Positions 34,488 through 50,195 of a stretch of 64,000 nucleotides of DNA are shown piece by piece. The notes below the pieces were generated by a model that was given only the letters and a program-made list of their open reading frames with translations, was not told the origin of the DNA and ran no database searches. The stretch covers positions 267,191 through 331,190 of the forward strand of contig OOHM01000001.1 in assembly GCA_900320405.1 (NCBI GenBank), given 5' to 3'. The position numbers and the translations under genes are program-made. Within the stretch, counting starts at the first letter, position 1, and every line of letters starts with the position of its first letter. The stretch is from an uncultured Pseudomonadota bacterium (GTDB lineage: Bacteria; Pseudomonadota; Alphaproteobacteria; Rs-D84).

Positions 34488-34742
34488 ATGGGACAAGAGT
34501 TCAAAAAAAATTGGGGGATGGAGAGAGATACAAGTTGTTATTTTATAAACGAAAACGGAGAAAAAGATAAACTTATGACGCCAAGACAGTTGGCTCAATA
34601 TCTTGAATCATCCATTTCGGCATTAAGTCAATATCGTGCGCTGGGTACTGGACCGGAATACTTTAAAATCGGCAAAATGGTGCGATATCGCAAATCCGAT
34701 GTGAATCAATGGTTGGAACAACAAAGAATCGGCAAAAAATAG
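34488..34742 (+). CDS. AlpA-like excisionase / helix-turn-helix protein
   Basis: 84 residues with a MerR/AlpA-type winged helix-turn-helix: 'LMTPRQLAQYLESSISALSQ' and 'GPEYFKIGKMVRYRKSDVNQWL'. Such proteins bind att DNA to favour excision, or activate the integrase gene. AAAGGAG site seven bases before the ATG. It lies directly upstream of the integrase gene, in the same direction. Confidence 0.8.
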   Translation: MGQEFKKNWGMERDTSCYFINENGEKDKLMTPRQLAQYLESSISALSQYRALGTGPEYFKIGKMVRYRKSDVNQWLEQQRIGKK

Positions 34743-34807
34743 TTGTTTTTACTTGCTATTTTATTTGTGTGTTGCACTGTGTAGTCGCAACCAAAGGAGT
34801 TACACAT

Positions 34808-36004
34808 ATGGAAAAGCAATGGAAATGCTATACGAAGCCGTTTCGCGATACTTGGATACATTTGTTGCGTTCTGATGTAAATTTACAGGTAAGCGATGGA
34901 ACAATCCCCGGATTGTTTCTGCGGTATTCCGCATCAACGCGCGCAATCAGATTTTTCTTGGGATGTAAAATCGATAACAAGAAATGCAATCTTTATATCG
35001 GGCGATATAACGATTATTCAATCAAAGACATTCGTGAAATGGCATGGAATTTGCGGCGTCAAATTGCCAATGGGCAAGACCCGCGTCGCGAAAAAACAGA
35101 ACAACAGGAAGATCTTGGTGAAAAATTCGAAGATCTGTTTCCCCAATACATGGAAAAATATGCCAAGGTTTACAAGAAACCAAGAACGCAAGATTCCAAT
35201 TGGGGCGAATATCGATTATACCTGGGGCCCATGTTTGATAAATTATACATGCGCCAGATAGAAGAAAAACATGTAATGGACGCCTATGCCAAATGGGTGA
35301 AAAAGATATCGTTTTCAACCGCAAATAAAGCATTGTCGTTATTTTCAAATTTCTGGGACTGGTGCGAAATGTATAAATACGTGGATCGTAATACCAATCC
35401 ATGCAAATATGTTCGCAAAGGTGCAAACAAGGTATATAAACCACAGATACTTGATCAAGAAGGATATCGTGCATTATCGCATGCGCTGGATGTCGGGCCA
35501 AAAGCGTCCAGAATGCATCCGCGATTATTCAATGCGCTGCGGGTGTTAATGCTGACCGGATGTCGCGCATCAGAAATAACGGGACTAGAAGTAGATGAAG
35601 TTGTTCTTATGCACAAAGTGATACACTTGAAAGACAGTAAGACCGGTGCAAGGGATGTGAAGTTATGCGATGCGGTTATACCATATTTGCAGGCTGCGCT
35701 GGATGAAGCCAAGGCATTGGGAAGCAAATATGTATTCCCTGGCGTTGGTAATACCCGTCGCCCGATAAATAACATCCGCAAACCGTTTGAATGGGCATTA
35801 GAATACGCAAAACTTCCGCACATGCGAATACACGATCTGCGGCATTCTTTCATCAGTATGGGGGCGAATATAGGCGAAAATATGGCGGCTATGAAAGAAG
35901 CGGCCGGGCATTCCCGTATAACCACCACCGAAGGGTACACGCACATCATGGATAGTAGCACTTATCGCGCAATCAATAACGTTGCGAACGCAATATGCGG
36001 ATAG
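34808..36004 (+). CDS. int: Tyrosine recombinase (integrase)
   Basis: 398 residues from the ATG at 34808, which follows AAAGGAG; an upstream frame to 34709 overlaps the excisionase gene. N-terminal arm-binding DUF4102-like part, SAM-like core-binding domain (about 100-200), and catalytic domain with R253 (CRASEITG), H342/R345 (HDLRH), H368 (GHSRITTT) and Y377 (EGYTH). Presumably integrates the island at tRNA-Asn. Confidence 0.93.
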   Translation: MEKQWKCYTKPFRDTWIHLLRSDVNLQVSDGTIPGLFLRYSASTRAIRFFLGCKIDNKKCNLYIGRYNDYSIKDIREMAWNLRRQIANGQDPRREKTEQQEDLGEKFEDLFPQYMEKYAKVYKKPRTQDSNWGEYRLYLGPMFDKLYMRQIEEKHVMDAYAKWVKKISFSTANKALSLFSNFWDWCEMYKYVDRNTNPCKYVRKGANKVYKPQILDQEGYRALSHALDVGPKASRMHPRLFNALRVLMLTGCRASEITGLEVDEVVLMHKVIHLKDSKTGARDVKLCDAVIPYLQAALDEAKALGSKYVFPGVGNTRRPINNIRKPFEWALEYAKLPHMRIHDLRHSFISMGANIGENMAAMKEAAGHSRITTTEGYTHIMDSSTYRAINNVANAICG

Positions 36005-37012: not shown

Positions 37013-38284
37013 ATGTTAATAAACTTTTCTGTTTCAAATTTTGCATCATTCAAAAACAAGGTGACATTGTCCATGGAAAAGACCGCTATTCAACAGCATC
37101 CGGAACATATCTTGAATAAACGGGTGGTGTCTGGGGTGGCTTTGTATGGGGCAAATGCATCTGGAAAAACAAACCTGCTACGGGCAATAGGTTTTGTGCC
37201 GATGTTTGCATATCCGAACAGCATTTTGCAGTTGAATGCCTTGAATTCCTTTATGCAACAATCCGATGTGCCGACAGAGTTTGAAATTGAATTTGAATCA
37301 AACGGGGTAAATTATATTTATAAAATATCCTTTGATTCCAAGGAAATATTAAGCGAAGAAATCTCGTTCGCAGAAAAGACCAAACGAAATTTGATCTTTA
37401 AGAGAACGGGGCTTAATGCTGAATATGGAAAAAAATTTCAAACCGAATGGTATAAAAACAGAACATGCCCAAAAGATGTTACATTGATGTCCAAAATACT
37501 TAGCGATGGAATAATCGATAACAAGATATCCGGCTATCAGCATTTTGTGAACATTGATGAATTCTTAAGGGGGATTGCATTTTTTGATCCTAAAACAGAG
37601 GTGCCTGCGGGGTACATATACAACGGATTTAAAGAACCACAATTCAAAAAGTTTTTAAAGGGGTTGTTGCGTCAGGCCGATACAGGAATAACCGATGTTG
37701 ATTTGACGGAATTGCCACCGGCAACGCCTGAACAAATCGCAAAGGATCCAGACTTGTCAAGGTTATTGCCTGGGCATGCCTTGATACGCCAATATGGAGA
37801 TGATTATTATGTGTTTACAGCAGAGCGAGGAATTATAAGAGTGCAAAGATTAACCACTATGCACGGGGATGTTTCTTTCACGCTATCAAAGGAATCTGCG
37901 GGGACAATAAAGTTGTTCAAACTTGGATTCTTGTTGTATTCATACAAAAACATGCCAGGAAGCAAATTATTGTTGTTGGACGAATTTGATGGATTGTTCC
38001 ATCCGTTCTTGACGAAAGTGTTGCTTAAAAGTTTGTTAAACAACCATATGGGGGGGCAATTCATAGCCGCTTTACACAACACAATGTTGTTAAGTCATGA
38101 CGTCTGGCGTGTTGATGAAATTTGGTTCACAGAAAAAGACGAAGACGGGGCAAGTGATTTATATCCTTTGACTGATATCAATCCGCGGTTTGATAAAGAT
38201 CTTGAAAAAGATTATATCAACGGGCGATATGGTGCGGTCCCGTTTTTGGGGGATGAAAAGGCATGGGAAGAAATAGTGAAGTAA
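37013..38284 (+). CDS. AAA15-family ATPase (RloA-like)
   Basis: 423-residue ABC/SMC-like ATPase of the AAA15 (COG1106) type. Walker A GANASGKT at 46-53, a signature-like 'LSKESAGTIKL', and Walker B LLLLDEFD at about 318-325. Starts with the typical 'NFSVSNFASFKNKVTLSM'. These ATPases form two-gene defence modules with a small nuclease or toxin partner. Here the next gene overlaps it by 22 nt. Related pairs next to type I systems were named rlo (R-linked ORF) in Campylobacter. Confidence 0.85.
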   Translation: MLINFSVSNFASFKNKVTLSMEKTAIQQHPEHILNKRVVSGVALYGANASGKTNLLRAIGFVPMFAYPNSILQLNALNSFMQQSDVPTEFEIEFESNGVNYIYKISFDSKEILSEEISFAEKTKRNLIFKRTGLNAEYGKKFQTEWYKNRTCPKDVTLMSKILSDGIIDNKISGYQHFVNIDEFLRGIAFFDPKTEVPAGYIYNGFKEPQFKKFLKGLLRQADTGITDVDLTELPPATPEQIAKDPDLSRLLPGHALIRQYGDDYYVFTAERGIIRVQRLTTMHGDVSFTLSKESAGTIKLFKLGFLLYSYKNMPGSKLLLLDEFDGLFHPFLTKVLLKSLLNNHMGGQFIAALHNTMLLSHDVWRVDEIWFTEKDEDGASDLYPLTDINPRFDKDLEKDYINGRYGAVPFLGDEKAWEEIVK

Positions 38285-39349: not shown

Positions 39350-41062
39350 ATGAGCTTACAACACAACGTAAACGAAAAAGCTAACCTAATTTGGGCGATT
39401 GCAGATAAATTGACGGGGCCATTTAAACCACATGAATATGGCGAGGTTATATTGCCACTTATGGTGATACGCCGGTTTGATTCTATCTTACAAGATACCA
39501 AAGCGGCTGTTTTAGATGCTAACAAAAATATACCGGACGGACCGATGAAGCATGCCATGCTTTGCAATGCGTCGGGCCACAAGTTTTACAATGTCAGTGA
39601 ATTTACTTTCCCAAAATTGTTAGATGCGCCAGATCATATCGCCAGCAATTTCAATGCGTATCTGGCGGGGTTTTCAGAAAACGTGCGTGATATTATCGAA
39701 AATTTTAAATTTCAGGCAATAATAGACCGTTTGGTAGAAAACGATTTGCTGTTCATAATCATAGAAGAGTTTTGCTCGCCAAAGGGCGATTTGCATCCAT
39801 CTAAAATCAGCAATCTGGAAATGGGTTACATTTTTGAAGAAGTTATACGTCGCTTTTCCGAAGCCCACAACGAAGATGCCGGACAACACTATACACCACG
39901 TGAAGTTATCGAATTGATGGTAAATATATTGTTCGAAAATGATGCAGAAATTTTAACTGGTAATGTGGCAAAAACATTGTATGACCCCACGGTTGGTACT
40001 GGTGGAATGCTTTCTGTGGCCCAAGAATATTTGCACAAAATGAATCCAGATGCTTCATTGGTATGCTATGGTCAAGAAATCAATCCAGAAACCTATGCCA
40101 TTTGCAAAGGCGACATGTTGATTAAAGGTAATGATGCAGATAACATAAAACGCGGGAATACTTTATCAGATGATAAATTTTCAAGTGATAAGTTTGACTA
40201 CATTCTTTCCAATCCACCATTTGGTCGTGAATGGAAAAATGAAAAGAAGGCCGTAGAAGACGAAAACAGACTAGGGTATGCTGGGCGTTTTGGTGCAGGT
40301 TTGCCACCGGTCAGCGATAGCCAAATGTTGTTTTTACAGATTTGTGCATCAAAATTACGTCCCGAGGGCGGCCGCGCATGTGTCGTTCAAAACGGATCGC
40401 CATTATTCAGCGGTGACGCAGAAAGCGGACCGTCAGAGATAAGAAGATATTTATTAGAACACGATATGGTAGAGGCGATTATTGCACTGCCAAATGATTT
40501 GTTTTATAACACTGGAATAGCGACGTATGTTTGGGTGTTGTCAAATCGCAAGGTGTCATATCGTCAGCATAAAGTGCAGTTGATAGATGCAACACAAAAG
40601 TTCGAAAAACGTCGCAAGGCCCTGGGAAATAAACGTAATGACATTCCACAGTCGGCCATAGACGAAATTACACGTATATATGGCGAATTCAAAGAATCGG
40701 AAATCAGTAAAATTTTCCATACTGATGAATTTGGCTATCGTAAAATTACCGTTGAACGTCCAATGTTGGATGAAAAGGGTAATGTGGTTCTGAAAAAGGG
40801 AAAGCCGGTTGCGGATCCAAAATTACGTGATACAGAAAACGTACCGATGACCGAAGATATAAATGAATATTTTAAACGTGAGGTATTACCATTTGCACCT
40901 GATGCCTGGATAGATGAATCTAAGACCAAGATTGGATATGAAATACCATTTACACGTTATTTCTATAAATACACACCACCACGCAAATCAGACGATATTT
41001 TGGCCGAAATAATGACGTTGCAATCTGACCTTGATACATTATTGAAAGGGGTTGGAAAATGA
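39350..41062 (+). CDS. hsdM: Type I restriction-modification DNA methyltransferase subunit HsdM
   Basis: N6-adenine methyltransferase subunit. 570 residues: N-terminal HsdM_N helical domain (about 1-150), SAM-binding motif I DPTVGTGGM (from residue 212), catalytic motif IV NPPFG (from 288). 'AGQHYTPREVIELM' marks the join between the domains. Longer than the usual 500-520 residues by a C-terminal part of about 50 residues. Starts the operon hsdM-TM-hsdS-TM-TM-hsdR; the next gene overlaps it by four bases. Confidence 0.95.
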   Translation: MSLQHNVNEKANLIWAIADKLTGPFKPHEYGEVILPLMVIRRFDSILQDTKAAVLDANKNIPDGPMKHAMLCNASGHKFYNVSEFTFPKLLDAPDHIASNFNAYLAGFSENVRDIIENFKFQAIIDRLVENDLLFIIIEEFCSPKGDLHPSKISNLEMGYIFEEVIRRFSEAHNEDAGQHYTPREVIELMVNILFENDAEILTGNVAKTLYDPTVGTGGMLSVAQEYLHKMNPDASLVCYGQEINPETYAICKGDMLIKGNDADNIKRGNTLSDDKFSSDKFDYILSNPPFGREWKNEKKAVEDENRLGYAGRFGAGLPPVSDSQMLFLQICASKLRPEGGRACVVQNGSPLFSGDAESGPSEIRRYLLEHDMVEAIIALPNDLFYNTGIATYVWVLSNRKVSYRQHKVQLIDATQKFEKRRKALGNKRNDIPQSAIDEITRIYGEFKESEISKIFHTDEFGYRKITVERPMLDEKGNVVLKKGKPVADPKLRDTENVPMTEDINEYFKREVLPFAPDAWIDESKTKIGYEIPFTRYFYKYTPPRKSDDILAEIMTLQSDLDTLLKGVGK

Positions 41063-41700
41063 TTTTATGTGGTGTAGAGATTCCAAATTTAGATTTGGTG
41101 AACATAGCTGCTGCAGGATTGGCGGCGTTTACTGGTGCTGTTGCTGCGTTTGTTGTAGCGCAGATAAAAGAGAATAGAAAACAAAAGGCGACAGAGCGAT
41201 CAAAATTGGTACAATGTTTTTATGATTTACATTTTGCTTTGCGAAATGTGTCTCATTTTCATAACGAGATAACAAAAATACATAAAAACGAACCTTGTAA
41301 TAATACAACAGAAAGTGCTCGTCAGATTCTGAATTTTCAATTTGATACTCAAAGTGTTGATTTTATTTGTAGCAAATGTCCATTGTTATATGAAATCATA
41401 TCTCAAATTGATATGGATTGGAGTGTTTTGAATTCTGTAGCGGCATCCAAAAATTATGATGCAATAAGTGAACATGTGATGGTTATTTGTATGAAATTGA
41501 TGGCTACAATAGAAAATATAGATGACTATCTGGTAAAATATTATAAACAAAAATCGATGATTGTTGGTAACGTACAAAAGAACTTGGATGCAGTTTTAGA
41601 TGTGTTACCGAATTTAAAACAGTGGAAGCTTACCGGAGATAAAAAATTGGAAGCTGATCCAGCTGTAGTTGCTTATAAAGAATGGCGGATTAAAGTATAG
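41059..41700 (+). CDS. Membrane-anchored protein inside the hsd operon (1 of 3)
   Basis: 213 residues. One N-terminal membrane helix (about 12-36, IAAAGLAAFTGAVAAFVVAQI) followed by a basic segment (KENRKQKATERSK) and a helical cytoplasmic domain. The start overlaps hsdM (ATGA), the end lies 11 bp before hsdS. Not a known subunit of type I enzymes. Its layout (one helix, basic segment, helical domain) matches the two proteins encoded downstream of hsdS. Confidence 0.7.
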   Translation: MILCGVEIPNLDLVNIAAAGLAAFTGAVAAFVVAQIKENRKQKATERSKLVQCFYDLHFALRNVSHFHNEITKIHKNEPCNNTTESARQILNFQFDTQSVDFICSKCPLLYEIISQIDMDWSVLNSVAASKNYDAISEHVMVICMKLMATIENIDDYLVKYYKQKSMIVGNVQKNLDAVLDVLPNLKQWKLTGDKKLEADPAVVAYKEWRIKV

Positions 41701-41711
41701 AGGATAAAGAT

Positions 41712-42992
41712 ATGTTGGCAAACAAAGAATATAAAGATTCTGGGGTTTCATGGTTGGGGAATATACCAGCGCTGTGGAACATAGTGAAAACAAAACGCCA
41801 TTTCCAAAACGAAAAACGGGTTGCCGGCAAATATGCTAATCAATATGAACGTCTAGCTCTGACTATGAATGGTGTTATAAAAAGAGATAAAGAAGACGCT
41901 GAGGGATTGCAACCAGAAAGCTTTGAGGGATATCAAGTTCTTGAACAAAACCAATTGGTATTCAAGTTGATTGATTTGGAAAATGTTAAAACAAGCCGTG
42001 TGGGTTTGTCGCCATATACGGGGATCGTATCTCCAGCATATATTATTTTGCATAATGACCAACAAGATAATCGTTTTTATTATTACTATTACATGAACAT
42101 GTATTATCAAGAAATATTCAATTACCTTGGTGGAGAAGGTGTAAGAAGTGCATTAAATGCAAAAGATTTATTAGAAACGCCAATTCCGGATATTTCATTA
42201 AAACAACAAAAAGTGATAGCAGATTATTTGGATAAAGAATGTGCAAAAATTGATAGCTTGGTTGAAAAACAACGCAGCATAATTGAAAAGCTGAAAGAAT
42301 ATAAAAAATCTGTTATCACCGAGGCCGTCACACGTGGGCTAGATCCAGCCGCACCAATGAAGGACAGCGGTATAGAATGGATAGGAAAAATTCCTGCACA
42401 TTGGGAAATAAGACGAATAAAAACACTTGGCGAGTACAGAAACGGTCTTACATATAACCCAGAAAATATGGTCGGCGAAGAAGGGACTTTAGTGCTTAGA
42501 TCGTCAAATGTGCAAAATGGTAAACTTGTTTTTGAAGATAATATTTTTGTGAATAGTGAAATACCGGATCAATTGTTTGTTCGTAAAGGCGATATAATAA
42601 TTTGCTCAAGGAACGGTAGTAGAGAATTGGTTGGGAAAAACGCTGTTGTAAAAGAGGATTTACATGCTTCTTTTGGTGCGTTTATGATGGTTTTTAGATC
42701 CAGGTATCCGGAATATATGAGTTATATTTTGAATTCTGCAATATTTAATTATTATTTAAGCAGTTTTTTTACTTCAACAATAAATCAACTAACCGGTAGC
42801 AATTTTGGAAACATGAGAATTGTTTTTTGCCCGGACAAAAAAGAACAAGATGAAATAATAGAATATCTTGATCATAAGTGTGAAGCAATTGATGAGGTAA
42901 TCGAAAAACGTGAAAAGCTAATAGGTTTGCTTATTGAATACAAGAAATCACTGATATACGAATGTGTGACAGGTAAAAAAGGGGTTGCATAA
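41712..42992 (+). CDS. hsdS: Type I restriction-modification specificity subunit HsdS
   Basis: 426 residues with two target-recognition domains, each introduced by a conserved start ('DSGVSWLGNIPALW' at about 7 and 'DSGIEWIGKIPAHW' at about 217) and each followed by a long conserved helix ('LKQQKVIADYLDKECAKID', 'KKEQDEIIEYLDHKCEAID'). It defines the bipartite recognition site and holds two HsdM. The stop codon overlaps the ATG of the next gene. Confidence 0.93.
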   Translation: MLANKEYKDSGVSWLGNIPALWNIVKTKRHFQNEKRVAGKYANQYERLALTMNGVIKRDKEDAEGLQPESFEGYQVLEQNQLVFKLIDLENVKTSRVGLSPYTGIVSPAYIILHNDQQDNRFYYYYYMNMYYQEIFNYLGGEGVRSALNAKDLLETPIPDISLKQQKVIADYLDKECAKIDSLVEKQRSIIEKLKEYKKSVITEAVTRGLDPAAPMKDSGIEWIGKIPAHWEIRRIKTLGEYRNGLTYNPENMVGEEGTLVLRSSNVQNGKLVFEDNIFVNSEIPDQLFVRKGDIIICSRNGSRELVGKNAVVKEDLHASFGAFMMVFRSRYPEYMSYILNSAIFNYYLSSFFTSTINQLTGSNFGNMRIVFCPDKKEQDEIIEYLDHKCEAIDEVIEKREKLIGLLIEYKKSLIYECVTGKKGVA

Positions 42993-43441
42993 TGGTGTGG
43001 TGGCAATGGTTAATTTCGTTGTTGTGTGGTTTGGCTGGTGCTGCGCTGGGTGGTTATATATCGTATAAAACAATGTTGGCACAACAGGATAAGCAACGAG
43101 AATTTGAAACTGATACCTATAATAGAAACAAGCGTAATGAAACATACCTAGCAATAATAAAATTTTTTCAACGGTTGTTAGATGTAGATTTTGATCGTAT
43201 GTTACGCAGTTATGACGAAGATATAATAAATGAATATGAACAAACAAAAGCGATGGTTTATATGTATGCTTCGCAAGAAATAAAAGATATATTTCCAATA
43301 TTCAAACAATGTTTTGATACAGATCATTTTACAAGCACCTACACCAAAGAAGAATTACAAGATACATTCAATCTAATACAGGTACAGATATTCATTGAAC
43401 TTGAAAGCACTAAAAAACAAAAAGGTGTACAGAATGTCTGA
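42992..43441 (+). CDS. Membrane-anchored protein inside the hsd operon (2 of 3)
   Basis: 149 residues: N-terminal helix 'LISLLCGLAGAALGGYISYKT' (about 7-27), then a charged linker and a helical domain with 'KAMVYMYASQEIKDIF'. The next protein has the corresponding 'APMLIYASRKIYKEYY', so the two are related. Start overlaps hsdS (TAATG) and end overlaps the next gene (ATGTCTGA), meaning tight translational coupling. No family name known to me. Confidence 0.7.
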   Translation: MVWWQWLISLLCGLAGAALGGYISYKTMLAQQDKQREFETDTYNRNKRNETYLAIIKFFQRLLDVDFDRMLRSYDEDIINEYEQTKAMVYMYASQEIKDIFPIFKQCFDTDHFTSTYTKEELQDTFNLIQVQIFIELESTKKQKGVQNV

Positions 43442-43865
43442 AACGATAATTGCTTCTTTAGTTGGTGCTGGTGGTGTGTTTGTTGGTGCGCTTATGACAT
43501 TGATTGGACTTGGAATCCAATCTTGGTTACAATCACGACGTGAAGAAAAACAACATATCAAGCGAAAAAGAGAAGAGTTGTATATAAAAGTTTGCTATGT
43601 TTTAATGGAACATGAAAAAACAGGTCGCTATAAGGAAATAAACAAACACTGTAAAGACGTCTTTAATGAATTGCAGGCACCAATGTTGATTTATGCATCA
43701 AGGAAAATTTACAAAGAATATTATAAATTAGATTCTGAAATCTGGCAAACTTATGCTAAAATACATACTAAGAAGCAAGCTGAACAAATTTCAAATGAAA
43801 TAGCAGATAAAATAGAAGCGTTTGCAGAGAAAATGCGCAAAGAACTAGGAATAAAAGGAGCATAG
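43434..43865 (+). CDS. Membrane-anchored protein inside the hsd operon (3 of 3)
   Basis: 143 residues from the ATG at 43434 (AAAGGTG upstream). One N-terminal membrane helix (about 4-26, with GAGGVFVGALMTLIGLG), a basic segment 'SRREEKQHIKRKREE', and a helical domain containing the YAS motif. Ends three bases before hsdR. The role is unknown; possible jobs are membrane tethering of the R-M complex, an effector, or an immunity factor. Confidence 0.7.
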   Translation: MSETIIASLVGAGGVFVGALMTLIGLGIQSWLQSRREEKQHIKRKREELYIKVCYVLMEHEKTGRYKEINKHCKDVFNELQAPMLIYASRKIYKEYYKLDSEIWQTYAKIHTKKQAEQISNEIADKIEAFAEKMRKELGIKGA

Positions 43866-43867
43866 TA

Positions 43868-46867
43868 ATGGCTGGCGATAACTTGAAAGAAATAAATTTA
43901 GAAGAGGCAATAGAAGCATCTTTGATTACCGAAGGCGGTTATGATAAGGGCGATCCAAAGGCTTTTAATCCAAATAATGCGCTGGATGAACAGACGCTTA
44001 TTCAATTTATTAAAAACACCCAGCCCAAAGAATGGAAACGTTATGTAACGGTATATCCAACAAACCCGGAACAATGTTTCATAGATCGTTTTTGCAAAAT
44101 TGTGCGTGAGCAGAACTTGTTGTGGGTGTTGCGCCATGGAATGAAAGATCGTGGAATATCTTTTAAGTTATGCTATTTCAAGCCGACAAATAATTTAAAT
44201 CCAGAATTGATTGAATTATATAACAAAAATATTTTGCATTGCACACGCCAGGTGCATCATTCTGTCGCACGACCGAATGACAGTGTGGATATGTTATTAT
44301 TCTTGAACGGTATTCCTGTTGTGTCTATGGAATTGAAAAACCAATTCACCGGTCAAGATGTTGGTAATGCGATAGATCAGTACAAATTTGATCGTTCAGG
44401 CAAAGATCCGGCATTTGAATTTAAACGTCGCGTGTTGGTGCATTTCGCGGTTGATTTATATAATGTATTTATGACAACCCGCCTGAATGGCGCTAAAACG
44501 AGATTTTTGCCATTCAACCAGGGATCAAACGGTGCCGGCAATGTCGGTGGCAAGGGTAATCCGGCAAATCCAAATGGTTTTACAACAGACTATTTGTGGA
44601 AACGCATTTTGTGTCGTGATCGCCTGATGGAAATTATCCAGAAATATATGTGTCTGGAAGTGGATAAAGAAGATAAAACGAAAGAAACTATGATATTCCC
44701 GCGTTATCATCAATGGGATGTTGTTACAAAATTGATCGCAGATGTATTGAAAAATGGAGCTGGACACAATTATTTGATTCAACATAGTGCCGGATCAGGT
44801 AAATCAAATTCTATTGCCTGGTTGGCCCATCGTTTATCCAGTTTGTCTGATGACAGTTCAAATAATATATTCAATTCGGTGATTGTCTTGACTGATCGGC
44901 GTGTTTTAGATGGACAATTACAGGATACTATATATCAATTTGATCACGTAGAAGGACTCGTTGAACGCGTAAAGCAGGGCTCAGGACAACTGAGAGATGC
45001 CATCAATAATGGTAAAAAGATTATTATATCAACTTTGCAAAAGTTCCCGCATATTTACAAGGAACTGAACAAGATGGATAAGAAATTCGCAATTATTATT
45101 GACGAAGCACATTCATCTCAATCTGGTAAAGCCGCATCAACAGTTATTGCAGGATTGGGTGATACAGAAAAGGCTTTGGCAGAGCAGGCGGCAATAGAAT
45201 CAGATGCAGAAGATAAACGCAAAGACGACATGGATGAATTGACCGAAGTATTAGCAACCCAAGGTAATCATGAGAATTTATCTTTCTTTGCATTTACAGC
45301 AACGCCAAAGGCAAAAACATTGAACAGATTTGGAACAAAACAAGCAGATGGAAAATATGTGCCTTTCCATGTATACTCAATGCGTCAGGCCATAGAAGAA
45401 GGTTTTATATTAGATGTTTTACAGAATTATACCACTTATAAAACCTACTATAATCTGGTAAAACGTGCCGCGGATGATCCGGAATTAGAAACATCAAAAG
45501 GCGCCAAGGCAATAACAAGATTCCAGACACTGCATCCACATAACATTGCCCAAAAAACCCAGATTATGATAGAACATTTTCGCGATGTTACTATGAATAA
45601 AATCGGTGGACGGGCCAAGGCTATGGTTGTGTCTTCATCCAGATTGCAGGCGTTGTTGTATTTTCAAGCATTTAAAAAGTACATCAAAGAACATGGCTAT
45701 AAAGATGTTGATGTTTTGATCGCTTTTTCTGGCGATTTGACGGCAGATGGTCAAACGTATAATGAAACCAGTTTGAATATAGCCAAAGACGGTAAAACAC
45801 ATATCAAAGAAGATCAGTTGCCAAAATATTTCAAACGTGATTTCAATGTATTGATTGTTGCAGATAAATATCAAACGGGTTTTGATGAACCATTATTGCA
45901 CACAATGTTTGTTGATAAAAAGTTGAACGACGTGAAAGCTGTTCAAACATTGTCACGTTTGAACCGTACAACAACAGGAAAAACAGATACTTTCGTTTTA
46001 GATTTTGTTAATGAAGCGGAAGATATACAAAAATCGTTTCAACAATATTATCAAGAAACCATTTTGACTAGCGAAGTGGATCCAAATGAATTGTACAAAT
46101 TACAATCTGCGCTGGATGATATGCATGTTTATACACCACAAGAAATAGAAAATTTTGCATCTATCTATTTTTCTGGTCATGAGACCAAAAACGATCTTGG
46201 AAAGCTGTCTAGCATATTGAAACCGGCACAGGATAGATATGTGGCACTAAAACAAGAAGGCAAGGATAAATTCAAAAGTGTTTTAAACAATTTTATCCGA
46301 TTGTATGGTTTTGTTGTGCAAATTGTCCGGTTGTTTGATCGTGATTTGGAAAAGTTCTATGTGTTTGCCAAATTCTTGATAAAAGTGCTTAGAAACGAAA
46401 AGGGCGATATACTGAAGTTGGATGATAAATTGTTGATGGAATATTATAAATTAGAAAAGACGTATGAAGGTCAGATAAAACTGGATACAAAAGATGGTGA
46501 AGCGAATCCGCCAAAGGGAGGAACAGGAACCAGTAAAAAAGACAAGGCCCCTTTATCGGTTATAATAGAAAAATTCAATGCACGTTTTGGAACAGCGTTT
46601 ACGGGTGTCGATAAAGTGCTTGAGTTGGTTATGAATGAAATAGAAAGCGATCCGCAATTGGCAGAAGCAGCACAAACCAAAAATCGCACTTTGTTCAATG
46701 GATTGATGCCGGATAAATTTGATCAAGCAATGATAGGCAGATATACACAAAATGACAAGTTCTTCAAAGAGATATTCGCCGATGAAGACAAGATGAATTT
46801 CTTGAAGGCTTTGTTGTTTGAAGAAGCATATCGTGCAATGAGCAAAAAGAAAAAAAGTAACAAATAA
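43868..46867 (+). CDS. hsdR: Type I restriction endonuclease subunit HsdR
   Basis: ATP-driven DNA translocase and nuclease. 999 residues: N-terminal PD-(D/E)xK nuclease ('NDSVDMLLFLNGIPVVSMELKNQ'), motor domain 1 with Walker A SAGSGKSN (about 307) and DEAH (from 412), 'FFAFTATPKAKT' (motif III), motor 2 with 'DKYQTGFDEPLL' and 'QTLSRLNRT' (motif VI), and a C-terminal helical part that binds the methyltransferase. Complete, with no visible defect. Confidence 0.95.
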   Translation: MAGDNLKEINLEEAIEASLITEGGYDKGDPKAFNPNNALDEQTLIQFIKNTQPKEWKRYVTVYPTNPEQCFIDRFCKIVREQNLLWVLRHGMKDRGISFKLCYFKPTNNLNPELIELYNKNILHCTRQVHHSVARPNDSVDMLLFLNGIPVVSMELKNQFTGQDVGNAIDQYKFDRSGKDPAFEFKRRVLVHFAVDLYNVFMTTRLNGAKTRFLPFNQGSNGAGNVGGKGNPANPNGFTTDYLWKRILCRDRLMEIIQKYMCLEVDKEDKTKETMIFPRYHQWDVVTKLIADVLKNGAGHNYLIQHSAGSGKSNSIAWLAHRLSSLSDDSSNNIFNSVIVLTDRRVLDGQLQDTIYQFDHVEGLVERVKQGSGQLRDAINNGKKIIISTLQKFPHIYKELNKMDKKFAIIIDEAHSSQSGKAASTVIAGLGDTEKALAEQAAIESDAEDKRKDDMDELTEVLATQGNHENLSFFAFTATPKAKTLNRFGTKQADGKYVPFHVYSMRQAIEEGFILDVLQNYTTYKTYYNLVKRAADDPELETSKGAKAITRFQTLHPHNIAQKTQIMIEHFRDVTMNKIGGRAKAMVVSSSRLQALLYFQAFKKYIKEHGYKDVDVLIAFSGDLTADGQTYNETSLNIAKDGKTHIKEDQLPKYFKRDFNVLIVADKYQTGFDEPLLHTMFVDKKLNDVKAVQTLSRLNRTTTGKTDTFVLDFVNEAEDIQKSFQQYYQETILTSEVDPNELYKLQSALDDMHVYTPQEIENFASIYFSGHETKNDLGKLSSILKPAQDRYVALKQEGKDKFKSVLNNFIRLYGFVVQIVRLFDRDLEKFYVFAKFLIKVLRNEKGDILKLDDKLLMEYYKLEKTYEGQIKLDTKDGEANPPKGGTGTSKKDKAPLSVIIEKFNARFGTAFTGVDKVLELVMNEIESDPQLAEAAQTKNRTLFNGLMPDKFDQAMIGRYTQNDKFFKEIFADEDKMNFLKALLFEEAYRAMSKKKKSNK

Positions 46868-46900: not shown

Positions 46901-46929
46901 TTGAATTTTGATTGAAATTATGATATAAT
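46901..46929 (+). promoter_or_regulatory. Promoter of the HATPase/STAS/PIN cassette
   Basis: TTGAAT (46901-46906), 17-bp spacer, TATAAT (46924-46929). The start falls about five bases before the ATG at 46941, so the mRNA would be nearly leaderless. Confidence 0.65.
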
Positions 46930-46940
46930 AGGCAAGAAGT

Positions 46941-47771
46941 ATGAGGGTTATTTTACAAGGAAACATAGATACAGATTTTAATTCAATCAACAAATTGATG
47001 TTTGTTGATAATGCTCTTTCTGATGCTGTCGTTCTAGAAGAGTGTGTAATAGATATGCAGAACGTCACATGGTTTAATGCTGCTTTATGTTCTTTCTTTA
47101 AGGCTTTCTTGAGACGAAGGATGCTTGAGAATAATATATCTATAAGGTTTTTGTTCAATGATGCCAGTTATTCAAATGTGGCAGTAAGGGATATTCTCTT
47201 TAGGAATGGCTTTTTTAATGGTGAGGTTTCTGATGTTTTTAATACAATTTTTCCAGTAAGAACATTTAGAACTTCTGATTCAGAAATGGAAAGCTTTTTA
47301 AGGAATATGAAAATTGATTTTCAGGATAAAGAGAAGTTTCCCTTTTCTGAAGTTGCATCCAGGGGGATTCTAAAGAGTCTTGGCGAGATATTTTCAAATG
47401 CAGAAAGACATGCAGAAAGTGATTGGATATATACTTCTGGACAGTATTTCCCTAATAAGGAACCAGGACAGGTGACTTTTTGTATCACTGATGTCGGAAT
47501 AGGAATAGTAGATCAAGTAAAAACAAGATCAGGACATGTGTTTGCGTCAAATGAAGCAATAGAATGGGCTTTTGTAGAAGGAAACACAACAAAGGAAAAT
47601 TCTGGTGGCTTAGGGTTGTTTTCTTTGAAAAACATAATAAGAGATAATAAAGGAGAACTGATAGTCGTTTCTAATGATGCGTATTATGATGTTTTAAGGA
47701 AAAAAATGTTTAAACTCTCATTTGACTTTAAAGGAACTTTATTTATAATAACAATGAACCAAAATGGATGA
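46941..47771 (+). CDS. HATPase (GHKL) protein with STAS-like N-terminal domain
   Basis: 276 residues. Residues about 1-105 form alternating strands and helices with 'CVIDMQNVTWFNAALCSFF', a STAS-like fold. The C-terminal part is a histidine-kinase-like ATPase: N box E149 and N153 (SLGEIFSNAERHAE), G1 box DVGIG (184-188), G2 box GGLGL (222-226). No phospho-acceptor histidine domain or membrane segment, so not a classical sensor kinase; closer to anti-sigma-factor-type kinases. Four bases before the DUF4325 gene; one operon. Confidence 0.8.
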   Translation: MRVILQGNIDTDFNSINKLMFVDNALSDAVVLEECVIDMQNVTWFNAALCSFFKAFLRRRMLENNISIRFLFNDASYSNVAVRDILFRNGFFNGEVSDVFNTIFPVRTFRTSDSEMESFLRNMKIDFQDKEKFPFSEVASRGILKSLGEIFSNAERHAESDWIYTSGQYFPNKEPGQVTFCITDVGIGIVDQVKTRSGHVFASNEAIEWAFVEGNTTKENSGGLGLFSLKNIIRDNKGELIVVSNDAYYDVLRKKMFKLSFDFKGTLFIITMNQNG

Positions 47772-47774
47772 TAT

Positions 47775-48080
47775 ATGGACAAAACGCAAAAAATTTTAGT
47801 TAGAGAAATAATAGATTCTGAATTTGCTGTATCTTTGGATCGGGCAGATATTTTATTTAATTTCTTGAAAGAAATTTTGGCTAAAGGCGAAAAAATCGAA
47901 CTGTCTTTTGATGGAATAGAAGTGTTGTTAACAATTTTTGCAAACGAATCCATTGGTAAGTTGTATGAAGATTTTGATGCTTCAGTGATAGAAAATATTA
48001 CTATAGTGGATATAGATGCTAGCTCTATGGATACAATTACTAGAGTTAAGAAAAAATCAGCAGAACTTTACAAGAAATAG
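47775..48080 (+). CDS. STAS-like DUF4325 protein
   Basis: 101 residues resembling the DUF4325 (STAS-like) family: an N-terminal 'ILVREIIDSEFAVSLDRADILF', strand 'KIELSFDGIEVLLTIFANESIGKLY' and a short C-terminal helix. A STAS-like protein beside a GHKL ATPase suggests a partner-switching pair, in which the ATPase binds or phosphorylates the STAS domain. Three bases before the PIN gene. Confidence 0.75.
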   Translation: MDKTQKILVREIIDSEFAVSLDRADILFNFLKEILAKGEKIELSFDGIEVLLTIFANESIGKLYEDFDASVIENITIVDIDASSMDTITRVKKKSAELYKK

Positions 48081-48083
48081 TCA

Positions 48084-48641
48084 ATGAGCGTTTATAACAT
48101 AGCTAACTTGCCAGATACTGCCGATCATTTTGTGTTTGACACTAATGTTTTATTGTTTTTACATGGGTTTAATTCTGAAAATAGAGATAAACGTTATGTT
48201 AGGGCGATGCGCGATTATTCAGTAATTGCTAATAATATTATAGCAGATGGCGGCCACGTTTATATTGATTTGATTGCTTTAAGTGAATTTGTTAATAAAT
48301 ACATAAAGCAAGCTTTGGCTGATAAATTGGGCGAAGAATATAGAGATTTCAAATTTGATAAAAAAGAACATAGAGAAAAACCAGAATATTTTGAGGTTAT
48401 TGCGGATTTGCAACAAGTAATAAACCAAATAATGACAAGTTATGATGTTGAGATTGTTTCAGATGGTTATGATGGGTTCGATATAGATAAACTTTCAGAA
48501 ATTCTTCCAATTATGGAACTAAATGATCATTTAATTAGCCTGGTGGCAAAGAAATATGGGGCTTATTTAGTGACACATGACAGAGATATAGTTGACGGTT
48601 GCCGAGATGTAAATGTGGTGACGGCATTGCCGATGCGTTGA
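48084..48641 (+). CDS. PIN-domain nuclease
   Basis: 185 residues. All four acidic residues of a PIN active site are seen: D19 (FDTNVLLFL), E68 (ALSEFV), D148 (ELNDHLISLVAKKY) and D166 (VTHDRDIV). PIN domains are metal-dependent RNases, typically toxins or effectors. No antitoxin of VapB/AbrB type is nearby, so the two proteins encoded upstream are the likely control unit. Confidence 0.83.
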   Translation: MSVYNIANLPDTADHFVFDTNVLLFLHGFNSENRDKRYVRAMRDYSVIANNIIADGGHVYIDLIALSEFVNKYIKQALADKLGEEYRDFKFDKKEHREKPEYFEVIADLQQVINQIMTSYDVEIVSDGYDGFDIDKLSEILPIMELNDHLISLVAKKYGAYLVTHDRDIVDGCRDVNVVTALPMR

Positions 48642-48769: not shown

Positions 48770-49435
48770 ATGGCGCGTGGGATTATATATATTTTAACCA
48801 ATGATGCGATGCCTGGTTACATCAAAATTGGGCGCACAGATAAAACGGTTGAACAACGCATGAAGCAACTTGATAAAACTGGCGTGCCATTGCCATTTAG
48901 ATGCCATTTTGCTGTCAGGGTTGATAATTACGAAGAAAATGAGGCATATGCACACAGAATCTTTGCCGGTAGCCGCGTAAGATCAAATCGTGAATTCTTT
49001 AGAGTTGCACCGGAAGATGCGGTTGCTTTGTTAGAAGTACTTGCCAAAGGGTTCAAAGGCGAAGAGATAAAAACAGACAATACCATGTTTGGTGAAGATG
49101 GTGTGGTGAAAGATGAAGATATCCAAACAACATCCGATAAGAAAGGTAAAAAACAATACGATTTTGCTGCGGTTGGTATCAAGCCTGGGGCGACATTGGA
49201 ATTTGCGCGTACATTGAAAAATGGCACGGTTTTGAAATGCACAGTGAACGATTCCACGCATAAAAAGAAGGTATCGTTCAACGGTACGGATTATTCCTTG
49301 TCTGAATTGGCCAGAAAGATCATGAAAGAACATTTTGCCACCAATTGGAAACAATATCGTGGACCGGATTTCTTTAAATACAAAGGCGAAATTTTGACCG
49401 AACGCAAGAACCGCATGTTGGGCGAAAGCGAATAA
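48770..49435 (+). CDS. GIY-YIG (T5orf172-like) nuclease with DUF4357-like C-terminus
   Basis: 221 residues. The N-terminal domain has the spaced GIY...YIK motif ('GIIYILTNDAMPGYIKIGRT') and 'RVRSNREFFRV' with the conserved arginine/glutamate, typical of T5orf172/MUG113 GIY-YIG proteins. The C-terminal 80 residues ('GIKPGATLEFAR ... YSLSELARKIMKEHF') match the DUF4357 pattern. Found widely in R-M and defence islands; whether it cuts DNA is not shown. Confidence 0.82.
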   Translation: MARGIIYILTNDAMPGYIKIGRTDKTVEQRMKQLDKTGVPLPFRCHFAVRVDNYEENEAYAHRIFAGSRVRSNREFFRVAPEDAVALLEVLAKGFKGEEIKTDNTMFGEDGVVKDEDIQTTSDKKGKKQYDFAAVGIKPGATLEFARTLKNGTVLKCTVNDSTHKKKVSFNGTDYSLSELARKIMKEHFATNWKQYRGPDFFKYKGEILTERKNRMLGESE

Positions 49436-50182: not shown

Positions 50183-50195
50183 GAAATCTTGGCTC
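50180..50195. other. Right attachment-site repeat in tRNA-Asn
   Basis: GCGGAAATCTTGGCTC, same as 32538-32553. Its last six bases are the 3' end of the tRNA gene (CCA plus GCTC complement). Confidence 0.8.

Follow-up and report, generated by a model that had tools for sequence, protein, structure and literature searches.

A probable VapKSC-type toxin-antitoxin cassette with a short-armed antitoxin in a defence island of an uncultured alphaproteobacterium

Genes of the cassette

The 64,000-nucleotide stretch of DNA that was analysed (the window) carries three adjacent open reading frames of the plus strand, designated vapK, vapS and vapC (Table 1). They are separated by gaps of 3 bp (vapK/vapS) and 3 bp (vapS/vapC), in agreement with the tight spacing recorded in the initial annotation of this locus, and vapK starts 73 bp behind the end of hsdR. 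A promoter-like site, TTGAAT-17-TATAAT, ends 11 bp upstream of the vapK ATG, and a nearly leaderless vapK mRNA is plausible from this arrangement. The initial annotation had proposed both the promoter and the nearly leaderless mRNA: the position of the site fits, and in the relative L065 the sequence TACAAT, which resembles a -10 box, lies 10 bp upstream of the vapK ATG, but a sequence scan found promoter-like sites in the region at chance density (12 observed versus 11.1 expected). All three window genes lie in one reading frame with single stops between them; a possible meaning of this common frame was considered and dropped, since frame-sharing is absent in the relatives. No PADLOC model matched the vapK-vapS-vapC trio.

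Table 1. Positions in the window of the cassette genes, selected residues and sites, and neighbouring genes
Feature	Position	Strand	Basis
Tyrosine integrase of the island	34709..36004	+	Also in sister genome G658
hsdR, type I R-M	43868..46867	+	Directly upstream of vapK
Promoter-like site TTGAAT-17-TATAAT, extended -10	46901..46929	+	Position fits; similar -10 box in L065
vapK, GHKL kinase with putative STAS half, 276 aa	46941..47771	+	ORF, Pfam, motifs, structure model
VapK W44, conserved aromatic	47070..47072	+	Family alignment, 36/39
VapK N box (EIFSN...H), N153 and H157 invariant	47385..47411	+	Family alignment
vapS, STAS antitoxin (DUF4325), 101 aa, without C-terminal arm	47775..48080	+	Pfam, alignment to 9Z7O
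VapS T53, equivalent of phosphoserine S48 of Escherichia VapS	47931..47933	+	Alignment to 9Z7O chain A
vapC, PIN ribonuclease toxin, 185 aa	48084..48641	+	Pfam, family profile, structure model
VapC D19, aligned with the catalytic D28 of the Escherichia toxin	48138..48140	+	Profile alignment to 9Z7O chain C
GIY-YIG/T5orf172 protein, PADLOC candidate PDC-S57	48770..49435	+	Pfam, PADLOC

VapK matched the HATPase_c family of Pfam at E 1.1e-4, under the gathering cut-off of that family, and its ATP-site motifs are complete (N153/H157, D184-x-G186-x-G188, G222-G225), with N153, H157, D184, G186, G223 and G225 invariant across the family alignment. The closest fold of the GHKL domain is SpoIIAB, which residues 100-276 of the predicted model (pLDDT 89.0) match over 134 residues (Z 16.2, rmsd 2.2). 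In the N-terminal half the predicted succession of strands and helices would suit a STAS domain, and the VapK profile gave a weak match to the anti-sigma antagonist TM1442 (E 0.25). Neither the open reading frame nor the model contains a helix-turn-helix (HTH) domain, and nothing ahead of the STAS-like half is long enough for one. The kinase is about 31% identical to typical family members, and in the alignment its C-terminus is about 14 residues shorter than in most of them. The conserved W44 is a candidate counterpart of the aromatic residue of the single-stranded DNA site, W68 in CapK and F54 in Escherichia VapK. In order to place F54, the Escherichia VapK gene was sought: the L045 DNA had no match in E. 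coli genomes, and a search of 248 genomes of the order of G268 gave two matches, G268 itself and G506.

VapS was assigned to DUF4325 (Pfam E 9.9e-11) and carries nothing C-terminal of the STAS domain, including no winged HTH (wHTH). Its best match in the PDB was the VapS of 9Z7O (E 0.0027), and the family profile matched the same Escherichia protein at E 2.2e-26, far above all other chains. At the phosphosite, 39 sequences of the family have Ser and 7 have Thr, so that all 46 carry one or the other. VapC was recognised as a PIN protein (Pfam E 3.6e-6), and its predicted model (pLDDT 91.4) matches VapBC toxins. It is about 25% identical to typical family members, across which D19, E68, D148, T164 and D166 are invariant. 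The window VapC alone gave only chance matches in a PDB search, the VapC of 9Z7O being reached only by the family profile (E 7.1e-27, nothing else close). The ATPase with complete N, G1 and G2 boxes, the separate DUF4325 protein and the PIN protein with four acidic residues (D19, E68, D148, D166), all listed by the initial annotation, are thus present as described.

Neighbourhood and distribution

The cassette follows a type I restriction-modification (R-M) operon, also noted earlier, whose other subunits HsdM and HsdS are encoded at 39350 and 41712. Further upstream, the gene pair at 37013/38263 was scored by PADLOC as AbiL-like, while the GIY-YIG gene is located downstream of vapC. The placement of the locus in a tRNA island has partial support only: the integrase gene at 34709 and a tRNA-Asn gene at 50190 speak for it, but no att-like direct repeats flanking the island were found. 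Three small proteins (41059-41700, 42992-43441 and 43434-43865), each with one predicted transmembrane segment, are encoded in the R-M operon between hsdM/hsdS and hsdR, and relatives of two of the three are encoded in the G701 island.

The same island is found in a sister genome, G658. Its integrase is 97% identical and its GIY-YIG gene 99%, it has an AbiL-like pair, and its R-M system has diverged to about 40%. Where the window has vapKSC, flanked by hsdR and the GIY-YIG gene, G658 carries a two-gene cassette (L123:2870-4851), one gene encoding a coiled-coil membrane protein of 414 aa and the other a Hypoth_Ymh protein. In G701 the trio comes after a pair of genes resembling, by eye and with no family scan, a methyltransferase and a restriction gene. 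Both neighbourhoods are in keeping with a slot for defence genes in which cassettes are exchanged.

Relatives were collected by a scan of genome contigs with the kinase alignment, using only the pattern [GFD]EIF[SAM]N[ASC]x[RLG]H. This kinase-only scan gave 45 loci, with titles that include Alphaproteobacteria, Nitrospira, Poribacteria, Caldilineaceae and Candidatus Fimimorpha. The initial annotation had suggested looking for the trio elsewhere, and it is indeed conserved: the STAS gene comes directly after the kinase gene in 45/45 loci and a PIN gene after the STAS gene in 44/45, so that the K-S-C order recurs in 44/45 loci from many phyla, while in the remaining locus the contig ends 409 bases behind the kinase. 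Since the query contained neither VapS nor VapC, this co-occurrence is independent evidence, and a trio that recurs in 44/45 loci picked on a kinase motif alone is not a chance arrangement. In the relatives vapS and vapC usually overlap. One of the loci, L064, is filed under Gastranaerophilales and is nearly identical to L065; it may be a misbinned contig.

In a phylum sample of 398 genomes DUF4325 was found in 29, four of which hold K-S-PIN loci (the window included), and a VapS match was obtained in 3/156 genomes of the window's genus. Searches of plasmids (tblastn) with the window VapS and VapC gave no match.

Assignment to VapKSC and alternative explanations

The initial annotation considered that no system of this composition had been described. 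Such a composition is in fact described as VapKSC (Chambers et al., EMBO J, 9 June 2026, PMC13373217), in which a CapK-like kinase of STAS-GHKL architecture is combined with a STAS antitoxin and with a PIN toxin that resembles VapC. The window cassette shares with it the gene order K-S-C, a GHKL kinase without HTH (its N-terminal half being putatively STAS-like), a STAS protein with a Ser/Thr phosphosite, a VapC-like PIN protein with the catalytic Asp, and other defence genes nearby; among the 289 instances of the published survey, 36% are within 10 kb of another defence gene (PMC13373217). It differs in having Thr instead of Ser at the phosphosite, in the missing C-terminal residues of VapK and, above all, in lacking the C-terminal arm of VapS. 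Ordinary in outline, the cassette is with high probability a toxin-antitoxin system of the VapKSC type, in a variant whose antitoxin has a short arm. The remark that a classical antitoxin is missing does not hold in the sense that an antitoxin is present, namely the STAS protein VapS. The proposal of a partner-switch pair acting on an RNase effector in defence is supported by the homology to VapKSC and by the defence-island context.

The arm is essential in the Escherichia system, where the VapS2-VapC2 complex was solved (PDB 9Z7O), VapC is toxic and VapS neutralises it, and where neutralisation is lost by the S48E substitution of VapS or by deletion of residues 94-116 (PMC13373217). This C-terminal region, which reaches the VapC active site, is lacking in the window VapS: its last residue corresponds to residue 97 of the Escherichia protein, which leaves it without the arm 98-116 (about 19 residues), and it is for this reason a short-armed variant and not a standard VapKSC member. 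Since vapC follows vapS directly, no alternative arm is encoded between them. A longer VapC loop compensating for the absent arm was considered and rejected, since in the alignment, judged by eye, the loop length varies among long-armed relatives too.

A short VapS, with 48 residues past the phosphosite compared with 62-71 in most relatives, and a VapK that ends about 14 residues early could also be truncations, the unit being a decaying and non-working VapKSC. However, L064/L065 (about 70% identical, 49 residues past the phosphosite), G701, a third genus member with a complete K-S-C unit (L133; VapS 37% identical, 102 aa), and the Bacillota relative L107 of Candidatus Fimimorpha (51 residues) retain the short form, and the catalytic residues are all intact. 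Selection should also act against a VapC left without a functional antitoxin, making decay quite improbable. L091, with 55 residues past the phosphosite, belongs to a unit in which the PIN frame also looks disrupted; all remaining VapS relatives have at least 62 residues there.

Two other explanations were considered. The cassette might hold a transcriptional regulator pair of the CapKS kind, the kinase phosphorylating a STAS repressor that binds DNA and so governs the adjacent R-M genes or those further downstream; CapK-CapS have a related kinase and STAS phosphoswitch and R-M neighbours, and CapKS pairs are often found downstream of R-M operons (PMC13373217), as is the window trio. In CapK an HTH stands at the N-terminus and in CapS a wHTH at the C-terminus (PMC13373217), whereas the window VapK begins directly at its STAS-like half and the 101-aa VapS ends with its STAS domain; moreover, the third gene in the VapKSC branch always encodes a PIN nuclease, and the proposed output is a toxin rather than transcription. 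This explanation is very unlikely. A classical partner switch on a sigma factor, with the PIN gene as a bystander, would account for a GHKL serine kinase closest in fold to SpoIIAB (Z 16.2) and paired with a STAS partner, as in SpoIIAB-SpoIIAA and RsbW-RsbV. Unlike these pairs, the window kinase has a putative STAS-like N-terminal half of its own, the unit contains neither a sigma factor nor a PP2C phosphatase gene, and the effector is an RNase; in addition, the PIN gene is co-conserved in 44/45 loci, with genes overlapping or near-touching, and the family profiles of both VapS and VapC match the solved VapS-VapC complex. A sigma-factor switch is therefore extremely unlikely. From VapBC, with which it shares a PIN toxin of the VapC fold, the cassette differs in that its antitoxin is a STAS protein (DUF4325), no VapB-type DNA-binding antitoxin being found beside vapC, and in the proposed release by phosphorylation rather than by antitoxin turnover.

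Proposed mechanism and related cassettes

Under the VapKSC assignment, the cassette would act as a self-shutdown switch, in which the kinase is probably the sensor of DNA damage or of an attacking phage and sets the RNA-cutting toxin free from the antitoxin. By analogy with Escherichia, VapS would bind VapC and hold the PIN RNase inactive; single-stranded DNA arising from phage infection or DNA damage would activate VapK, which would phosphorylate VapS on T53 and so break the VapS-VapC complex. The freed VapC would then cut RNA, and the resulting growth stop would protect the population. The S48E/S48A data of the Escherichia study concern exactly the phosphosite aligned with T53, and the Escherichia system gave about 2-log protection against phage Bas42, while the single-stranded DNA trigger of Escherichia VapK itself is without biochemical demonstration (PMC13373217).

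The inhibition step cannot be transferred in its published form to the window cassette, because its VapS lacks most of the region (94-116) whose deletion abolished antitoxin activity in Escherichia; with the arm absent, VapS must inhibit here through the STAS face or through some other contact. We tentatively propose, with a confidence just short of even, that the short-armed VapKSC subtype silences VapC by the STAS domain alone, T53 phosphorylation being sufficient for release, and that, more widely, the kinase and the DUF4325 protein form a portable phospho-switch with exchangeable third genes (a PIN RNase or a single-transmembrane protein). With this cassette the range of VapKSC reaches uncultured Alphaproteobacteria with small genomes (0.9 Mb). 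A conserved lineage lacks the arm that the only studied VapKSC member requires, which makes the inhibition mechanism directly testable.

A sister three-gene cassette, recurring in chromosomes (L037, L040, L043, L053, L056, L058, L061 and L145-L151) and plasmids (L152-L155), encodes a STAS-GHKL kinase with a basic N-terminus, a DUF4325 protein with a conserved Ser in a GSSFLEEAFGG-type (SSFLEEAFGG-type) motif, and a third protein of 140-215 aa, in which a single transmembrane segment is usually predicted close to the N-terminus. The third protein had no significant match in Pfam, the members tested had no match in PADLOC, and the words 'transmembrane' and 'membrane protein' are absent from the text of PMC13373217. 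The sister cassette is possibly an undescribed phospho-switched membrane effector system; together with vapKSC it suggests that a single damage-sensing phospho-switch serves effectors of several kinds.

A scan of viral contigs with the kinase profile gave no relatives. Complete vapKSC units in the K-S-C order are present in three phage records: Streptococcus phage Javan172 (L114:3058-4850), where the unit adjoins the integrase gene and vapC was left unannotated, the phage contig MT837343 and an IMG/VR contig (L113:1420-3192 and L124:3126-4895). Another phage contig of 62.5 kb (IMGVR_UViG_3300027834_000006), in which no VapK or VapC match was found, encodes a lone VapS-like protein of 194 aa with Pro at the phosphosite (L125:3779-4363). 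Judging from its sequence, this single case is a candidate non-phosphorylatable decoy antitoxin that might serve as a countermeasure.
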